Below are positions 3,378 to 35,155 of a stretch of DNA of 64,000 bases, piece by piece. The stretch's first letter is position 1, and each line of letters starts with the position of its first letter. The stretch is from the NCBI GenBank assembly GCA_018262895.1, contig JADFDJ010000007.1, positions 62,001-126,000 on the forward strand. Direction: 5' to 3'. A program made the translations under genes and the position numbers. The notes beneath the pieces are model-generated. The model made no database searches and was not told where the DNA came from. It saw only the letters and a list, made by a program, of their open reading frames with translations. Origin of the DNA: Methanomassiliicoccus sp. Lineage in GTDB: Archaea; Thermoplasmatota; Thermoplasmata; Methanomassiliicoccales; Methanomassiliicoccaceae.

Positions 3378-3452
3378 TGGTGCGGGCGCCGGGATTCGAA
3401 CCCGGGCTTCAAGCTTGGGAAGCTTAAGTCCTAACCGCTAGACTACGCCCGC
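3378..3452 (-). tRNA. tRNA-Gly (anticodon CCC), 3' CCA encoded
   Basis: Reverse complement GCGGGCGTAGTCTAGCGGTTAGGACTTAAGCTTCCCAAGCTTGAAGCCCGGGTTCGAATCCCGGCGCCCGC-A-CCA folds as a cloverleaf; anticodon stem TAAGC/GCTTG, loop TTCCCAA. Confidence 0.95.
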
Positions 3453-25733: not shown

Positions 25734-26775
25734 GCACATTCTCGCCCTTCGCCCCTCTTCGCGGCAGGTTCTTGATGCGGTAGTAGCTCAGAGGGTGCCT
25801 CACATTGGCCTTGGGGTTCGTGCACAGACTGTCCGGCTCATAGCATATGCCGTAGCTCTTCATGGTGGCGCACTCCGGCGGCGTGTACTCCGTTCCAGAT
25901 GTCTGGCCGGTGATGTGGTCCACCTGGTACTTCGTCTTGCCCTGATCGAAGTCGGGGGATGTGGCGTACAATGCCAGGATATCGTCCGAGGACAGTCCGA
26001 TGTGGTGCAGGAAGGCCGTCAGGGCGAAGCGGCCCAGGTGGGGTATGTTCTCTCCGGCCTGCGCCATTCCTATCAGGTGGTTGATGCAGGGCGGAAAGTT
26101 CTCCACGCTTATCTTGCCGAAGTCCTCGGCCTTGAACTGTTCCCTCTTCACGGCGGTCCGGACCTTCAGCTCCTGCAGGTCTGCGCCCAGGGCAGTGGTG
26201 ATGAACGTGTCCACCGGCAGAGGCAGCTCCTCCTCGATGCGGTCCTGGAGCGCCTGCTGGAGCACCCTGGCCAATTTCACCTGGCTCATGGCGACCTGAC
26301 CTTCCTTCACCTCCGTGTTGATGAGCTTCCACTCCTTACTACGCATTCGTGACGTGTACCGCAGGTAGTCGGAGAAGTGCATCCTGATCTCGCCCCCCTC
26401 GGTGTTGAGCCTGACCCCTAGCTGGAAGGCGACCTCCTCCACGACCTCCATACTCTCCCTCTCCAGCCTCGCGTCCATGGCCACTCCCTCCGCGAGGGCG
26501 TAGCGCTTGGTGAGGAACCTGTCGTTGACGCCGGACACGAACATCCTGGCAACCGGATACGAAAGGATCTCCTCCAGCATGTCCTCCTCGGTGCCCATGG
26601 GACGGAGGCCGATCACTCCCTCCTCCAGGGCGTCGAGGACCCTCGCCTTACCGCGCGCCCGGGCCTGCCGGTAGGCCTCGTGGGTCAGAAGGTCCTCCAG
26701 GGTCACTCCCCGGTCCCTCACATGCTCGGCCGCATCCTTGAGGAACGGGTACCTAGCGTAGTGAAGGACATCCAT
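25684..26775 (-). CDS. priL: DNA primase large subunit
   Basis: FPPCINHLIGMAQAGENIPHLGRFALTAFLHHIGLS...CATMKSYGICYEPDSLCTNPKANVRHPLSYYR (Fe-S cysteines). Confidence 0.95.
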   Translation of the reverse strand: MDVLHYARYPFLKDAAEHVRDRGVTLEDLLTHEAYRQARARGKARVLDALEEGVIGLRPMGTEEDMLEEILSYPVARMFVSGVNDRFLTKRYALAEGVAMDARLERESMEVVEEVAFQLGVRLNTEGGEIRMHFSDYLRYTSRMRSKEWKLINTEVKEGQVAMSQVKLARVLQQALQDRIEEELPLPVDTFITTALGADLQELKVRTAVKREQFKAEDFGKISVENFPPCINHLIGMAQAGENIPHLGRFALTAFLHHIGLSSDDILALYATSPDFDQGKTKYQVDHITGQTSGTEYTPPECATMKSYGICYEPDSLCTNPKANVRHPLSYYRIKNLPRRGAKGENVPTPSIDSRSSPPAEPR

Positions 26776-34423: not shown

Positions 34424-34639
34424 TGGCCAGGTGTTACATATGATCGCATCCAGATAGGCAGGGGCGGATGGAGCAGGACCCGTTTCGTTCGGCCGTCGCT
34501 ACGGCCTTATGTTTCGAAAAACACCCATGAGCTTTGGCCCCCCTCCAGGACCTAAGCCAACCTTTATATAATTAGAGGCTTTACATGGGCTTCTGCAATG
34601 CCTATTAGCTTGCCATGGGCCCGTAGCTCAGCTAGGTAG

Positions 34640-34674
34640 GATGGCGGTAATAACATCCCTCTATCCCTAGAAAG
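34640..34674 (+). other. predicted tRNA-Lys intron 1 (D-arm, about 35 nt; boundary ambiguous by 1 nt)
   Basis: Interrupts the GCTC/GAGC D-stem; contains GGATG/CATCC-type pairing. Confidence 0.8.
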
Positions 34675-34710
34675 AGCATCTGGCTTTTAACCAGGTGGTC
34701 CGGGGTTCGA

Positions 34711-34741
34711 AAGGCGCGCGGCCTTCCCGTGCGCTCCGAAA
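34711..34741 (+). other. predicted tRNA-Lys intron 2 (T-loop, about 31 nt; boundary ambiguous by 1-2 nt)
   Basis: Interrupts TTCGA|AT of the T-loop; internal hairpin GCGCGC/GTGCGC. Confidence 0.8.
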
Positions 34742-34882
34742 ATCCCCGCGGGCCCGCCCTGGGGAGATAGGAGTTGAACGATGGAAGGTGCAACGTTCGG
34801 GAAGCCAGTACGGCGACGTTTTATTATTCTGACCAGTGGTCAACAATTTCTTTCAATCTCATTCGCGGACGAGGTGAACTAG

Positions 34883-35155
34883 GTGGTCGAGTCTGATTTA
34901 CACGTTTTGGAGCACGATCTCGTGCCAGAGCATACCCTGCTTTCAGAGCAGGAGGCCGAGAAGGTCTTGGCCAAGTTTAAGATTACCAAGGACCAGCTCC
35001 CCAAGATCCGGAAGGATGATGCATGCATCAGGATCTTGGAGAGGATCGAAGGTCCCATAAATCCCGGAAGGGTGATACAGATAAGACGTAAGAGCGACAC
35101 CGCCGAGGAGTTCATAGTGTACCGTCTGGTGATTAGCAAGGAACTCAAGGGGTGA
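34883..35155 (+). CDS. rpoH: DNA-directed RNA polymerase subunit H (Rpb5), GTG start
   Basis: [32 protein letters not shown]. Confidence 0.97.

Follow-up and report, generated by a model that had tools for sequence, protein, structure and literature searches.

Two introns at non-canonical positions in the tRNA-Lys(UUU) gene of Methanomassiliicoccales and their relatives, and a loop-less EndA

The stretch of DNA analysed here (the window: 64,000 nucleotides of contig JADFDJ010000007.1 from Methanomassiliicoccus sp.) carries what we consider, with a probability of about 0.94, to be a functional tRNA-Lys(UUU) gene, probably an essential one, of an archaeon of the Methanomassiliicoccales, interrupted by two protein-spliced introns at positions 20/21 and 59/60. 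Computation yielded exact boundaries, retention of the position in 12 families of the class Thermoplasmata, conserved pairing that is compensatory in the D-arm, and one loop-less two-domain EndA; from these we infer the transcription, cleavage and ligation of the tRNA. That the gene is real and ancient is almost certain. Its kind is already known, and its value lies in its class-wide conservation and its conflict with a published rule on the enzyme.

Gene structure and copy number in the host genome

The initial annotation had recognized a tRNA-Lys(UUU) gene at 34617-34756 with two non-canonical introns and none at 37/38, and both its placement, on the + strand, and its identity hold: the 140-nt unspliced gene yields a 74-nt spliced form with anticodon TTT (GGGCCCGTAGCTCAGCTAGGTAGAGCATCTGGCTTTTAACCAGGTGGTCCGGGGTTCGAATCCCCGCGGGCCCG). 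Its 5' half, which had been read as ending in GGTAG, included the first two bases of the intron, since the exon stops at T34637. The splice sites (Table 1) were placed by the bulge-helix-bulge (BHB) rule, under which cleavage by EndA follows the second nucleotide of either 3-nt bulge. Exon 1 so delimited matches intronless relatives (L074-L080, L099), and both the D- and T-loop joints of the spliced form are identical to the intronless gene of sister family f2.

Table 1. Coordinates of the tRNA-Lys(UUU) gene parts and the upstream element in the window
Feature	Position	Strand	Description
TATA-like box TTTATATAA	34563..34571	+	probable promoter, upstream of tRNA-Lys(UUU)
Exon 1	34617..34637	+	acceptor 5' strand, D-stem 5' strand, D-loop through U20
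D-arm intron	34638..34672	+	35 nt, position 20/21
Exon 2	34673..34711	+	A21, D-stem 3' strand, uninterrupted anticodon arm (TTT), variable loop, T-arm through A59
T-loop intron	34712..34742	+	31 nt, position 59/60
Exon 3	34743..34756	+	U60, T-stem 3' strand, acceptor 3' strand, discriminator G

The 74-nt form folds with the acceptor, anticodon and T arms in place and the D-stem shifted in the MFE structure. ARAGORN calls it tRNA-Lys(ttt) once both introns are removed and makes no call on the unspliced gene; Rfam at the curated cut-off recovers only a tRNA-Gly at 3381-3452 from the whole window, the tRNA-Lys(UUU) falling below it, and a more permissive genome-wide Rfam search (E up to 10) likewise does not recover the gene. 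The expectation that ordinary scans would miss it is thus borne out for these two tools. The pre-tRNA folds better than 200 of 200 dinucleotide shuffles (z = -3.43), and chance insertion is excluded by the 76 distinct genes, from relatives and the host, that bear both insertions at the same positions. TATA-like boxes occur at similar spacing upstream in most relatives (20 loci compared), with L163 lacking a clear box. Downstream of the tRNA lie genes whose translations we take to be RNA polymerase subunits; a small frame of 33 codons (MEGATFGKP..., 34781-34882, + strand) follows the tRNA, just ahead of the next gene, which starts at 34883, and similar frames occur in several relatives of the family.

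The host genome (Methanomassiliicoccales; 2.34 Mb, 30 contigs, completeness 99.66%) was searched with UUU anticodon-arm patterns, which match once, at this gene; hence the other intact tRNA-Lys(UUU) that the initial annotation had named as grounds for rejecting its reading was looked for and not found, with the proviso that assembly gaps could conceal a second gene despite the high completeness. The tRNA-Lys(CUU) of the host is a separate gene without an intron. A CUU anticodon does not read AAA, and four neighbouring genes use AAA codons (7 AAA versus 154 AAG); the tRNA-Lys(UUU) gene is therefore probably essential. Among the Rfam matches in the host, tRNAs for Cys, Leu(UAG), Glu(UUC) and Pro(CGG) were also unrecognized, and these may be interrupted as well.

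Splice motifs and distribution of the introns

The T-loop intron forms a strict 3-4-3 BHB in which the outer helix is the T-stem (GGGG/CCCC), the central helix is UUCG/CGAA and the bulges are AAA and AAU, with an inner hairpin beyond; in the window sequence the central-helix pair probability is 0.86-0.98. Across 84 distinct T-intron genes, 77 have all four central pairs, and 97.9% of positions are paired as against 21-68% in registers slid by 1-3 bases. As the exon side is nearly invariant, with a single variant (UCCG/CGGA in family f13), this helix contributes less covariation. The D-arm intron has the 3-nt 5' bulge (GUA) and the 4-bp central helix (CUAG, of exon bases 16-18, with CUAG) but is not a strict BHB, its exon helix being set apart from the 3' bulge: A14 and G15 lie between this helix and the D-stem and face the 3' AAA in a 3x2 internal loop, giving a 3' junction that is bulge-helix-loop (BHL)-like. 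Folding of the window sequence assigns a probability of ~0.66 to the D-arm central helix and only ~0.1 to the D-stem alongside the intron hairpin.

Conservation of the D-arm helix, between exon bases 16-18 and the 3' end of the intron, is comparably strong, with 306 of 312 positions paired (98.1%) in 78 distinct D-intron genes versus 23-47% in registers slid by 1-3 bases. None of 2000 shuffles (mean 273.7 pairs) reaches 306, a figure that overstates significance since related sequences are counted as separate; the slid registers give the more reliable control. The exon and intron partners change together in several lineages (CTAG/CTAG, CCAG/CTGG, GTAG/CTAC, ATAG/CTAT, CTCG/CGAG).

These motifs suggest the following mechanism. 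The primary transcript would fold with both intron hairpins, each intron pairing with four exon bases to present a BHB-type structure to EndA, and the central helices would take up G18 and T54-G57. With these residues occupied, the D-loop/T-loop elbow would be blocked until splicing, and recognition should consequently be local to each motif. EndA would then cut both sites, the exons would be joined, presumably by the usual archaeal tRNA ligase, and the elbow would form.

To survey the distribution of the introns, 61 genomes of relatives, 200 genomes from the class and 145 from the phylum were searched with the anticodon arm, a probe unaffected by the introns. The sample is non-exhaustive: intron states were classed only where the flanks of the match were read, counted one per genome, and the classification covers families with a lysine arm like that of the probe. 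Both introns, at the same positions, are found in 73 sampled genomes from 12 families of the class (f1 15, f3 17, f4 1, f5 1, f6 6, f10 1, f11 11, f13 3, f14 14, f21 1, f29 2, f32 1), including five of the six families of the host's order; named examples are Candidatus Haladaptatiplasma halalkaliphilum (L111) and Candidatus Sysuiplasma superficiale (L118). What the initial annotation treated as a single odd gene is thus an old and widely shared state of the class. Both introns are absent from all 10 f2 genomes read, from the genomes read of f18, f22 and f30, and from most genomes read outside the class. The D-arm intron occurs alone in G054 (f3) and G071 (f17), and the T-loop intron alone in four genomes of genus g29 (f11) within the class and in f57 (three genomes) and G318 outside it. 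In genus g13 the T-loop intron is present in G027 and G044 and absent from G054, so clean single losses seem to occur. Lengths are alike across carriers, mostly 29-37 nt for the D-arm and 28-38 nt for the T-loop intron.

Several other tRNAs show related features. In a Sysuiplasma-related family (L117, L118, L136, L209, L210) tRNA-Lys(UUU) has C at position 55, a T-loop reading TCCGAA and mostly very short introns of 14-30 nt; the T-loop of the host tRNA-Ile(GAT) is TCCAAAT. Two families from other classes of the phylum (L195-L198) have a tRNA-Lys(UUU) with a T-loop insertion only and a weaker central helix. A same-family relative (G009; 2.6 Mb, ~30 contigs, GC ~61% in three loci) has a UUU gene with both introns and also a tRNA-Lys(CTT) gene (L230) with a T-loop intron (AGGGTTCG-AAA...CGAA-TAT-CCCT), and Rfam at cut-off detects no tRNA in that CUU locus; the absence of the CUU intron from three relatives of the same family (G000, G001, G007) makes this intron at 59/60 an apparent recent gain. 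A tRNA-Arg(TCT) in locus L223 (G000:C24, overlapping 26139-26243, - strand) has an apparent 37/38 intron and a T-loop intron (TTCG-AAA-CCTTCTCTAGAAGG-CGAA-ATT-CCC), and scores only 15.1 bits with Rfam. The same locus holds a long-intron tRNA that reads as tRNA-Trp(CCA) (G000:C24 ~25766-25937, - strand; L223 1127-1298), its intron having a C/D-box match to sR3 below cut-off. Host tRNA-Thr(CGT) (L031) and tRNA-Leu(CAA) (L046) show apparent D-arm insertions of ~26 and ~22 nt, and ARAGORN finds neither.

Could the locus be a broken or decoy copy, with tRNA-Lys(UUU) supplied by another, intact gene? Its failure with ARAGORN and at the Rfam cut-off would fit such a copy, yet the single match of the anticodon-arm patterns, the intact exons, the clean splicing in silico and an arrangement kept in dozens of species make this very improbable. 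That both insertions are retained, leaving the mature tRNA with larger D- and T-loops, is scarcely credible: both follow the register of a 3-nt bulge and 4-bp helix, that of the D-arm covaries with exon bases, the elbow-forming G18 and T54-G57 would be buried, and at the joints sister lineages carry exactly the spliced sequence.

As regards history, we infer that an early ancestor of the class already had both introns and that losses followed in some lineages. The introns could instead be real but gained independently in many lineages, or have spread between species, an alternative that competes with the historical part alone. The apparent recent gain in the tRNA-Lys(CUU) of G009 and the weaker central helix of the T-loop introns outside the class (L195-L198) speak for it; nevertheless it appears unlikely, given that both positions are common to the 12 families with similar lengths, and that absences of single introns are nested (L087 in its genus, L143-L146 in their family), which shows how readily an intron is lost.

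The splicing endonuclease and published rules

The initial annotation had supposed an endonuclease with relaxed BHB specificity and proposed inspection of the EndA architecture. The only EndA found in the host is an open frame of 383 aa containing two PF01974 domains, whose C-terminal motifs GFKYG, SHF and VKK correspond to the catalytic Tyr, His and Lys in alignment with the A. fulgidus enzyme; its closest solved relative by sequence is the M. kandleri EndA (5x89). As one polypeptide with two tRNA_int_endo domains it is of the alpha-prime-2 type, and is predicted to act as a dimer. The crenarchaeal and ARMAN loops termed CSL and ASL, which have been associated with relaxed specificity, are recognized as ~10 additional residues ahead of the LSLIE motif of the catalytic unit; the catalytic half of the host protein aligns with that of A. 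fulgidus without the ~10-residue insertion of A. pernix alpha. On alignment with A. pernix alpha (the loop reference, rather than the ARMAN ASL), each of 23 EndA proteins lacks this CSL insertion; they come from lineages of the phylum with and without the introns, and two of them have one extra residue. No EndA was found in G281, which is taken as an assembly gap in view of the normal two-domain EndA of its family neighbours. The supposition of a relaxed enzyme is thus to be replaced, the EndA of the clade being, as judged by alignment, of the loop-less, ordinary fused type; moreover, of the two motifs only the D-arm 3' junction departs from the strict form.

Published statements conflict on what an EndA of this kind can cut. 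The A. fulgidus enzyme has been described as narrow or limited to canonical BHB (PMC6379350, PMC12397907), as has that of T. acidophilum (PMC6379350), and euryarchaea with alpha4 or alpha2 enzymes as having one intron only, at the canonical position (PMC4090602); Korarchaeum was presented as the only archaeon combining an alpha2 EndA with non-canonical introns (PMC4033280). On the other hand, BHL-like motifs have been stated to be cleavable by homodimers (PMC8707768), and A. fulgidus EndA removed a BHL intron at 37/38 from a full pre-tRNA (PMC6379350). Since the latter two sources allow BHL-like cutting, the conflict concerns positions, and the D-arm motif lies within some authors' limits. The statement of the initial annotation that non-canonical introns are uncommon in Euryarchaeota agrees with the reviews, which call them rare (PMC4090602, PMC4033280); since reviews present enzymes of this kind as strict and the introns of euryarchaea as canonical, the class stands out as an exception. 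We regard it as likely that a loop-less two-domain EndA has, from an early stage in the evolution of the class, routinely removed both the BHL-like 20/21 intron and the 59/60 intron from one transcript before the elbow forms, so that the rule calling for a CSL/ASL or a heterotetramer is not general.

Significance and comparison with known systems

No tRNA-Lys was detected in Methanomassiliicoccus luminyensis by Borrel et al. 2014 (PMC4153887), who suggested that it lay in the part of the genome not yet sequenced. Interrupted lysine tRNAs offer a ready explanation for this gap, both being interrupted in the relative G009 (which may not be M. luminyensis). More generally, tRNA counts and completeness checks in the class can miss essential genes, and the class furnishes a natural counter-example to the published link of EndA architecture with intron diversity. 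In open-licence papers there was no report on point for such introns in Thermoplasmata or Methanomassiliicoccus.

Two-intron tRNA genes with BHB-type junctions that simple scans miss are likewise found in Crenarchaeota (Thermoproteales), Thaumarchaeota, Korarchaeum, ARMAN and Asgard, and positions 20/21 and 59/60 are already on a published list (PMC4090602). However, the EndA of those groups is mostly described as (alpha-beta)2, epsilon-2 or alpha2 with a specificity loop (PMC4033280, PMC6379350; Asgard unstated in PMC11291895), whereas the host has the loop-less alpha-prime-2 type and one double-intron gene shared across the class. The canonical 37/38 introns of euryarchaea, apparent cases of which are also present in the host genome, share the enzyme class and the strict 3-4-3 motif of the T-loop intron, but differ in position, in number per gene and from the BHL-like D-arm junction. 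Multi-intron tRNAs among euryarchaea are known too from Methanopyrus kandleri and Methanothermobacter (PMC4033280), reported as single species and not class-wide; the M. kandleri EndA lacks the CSL (PMC6379350), as in the host, but is of the (alpha-beta)2 type.
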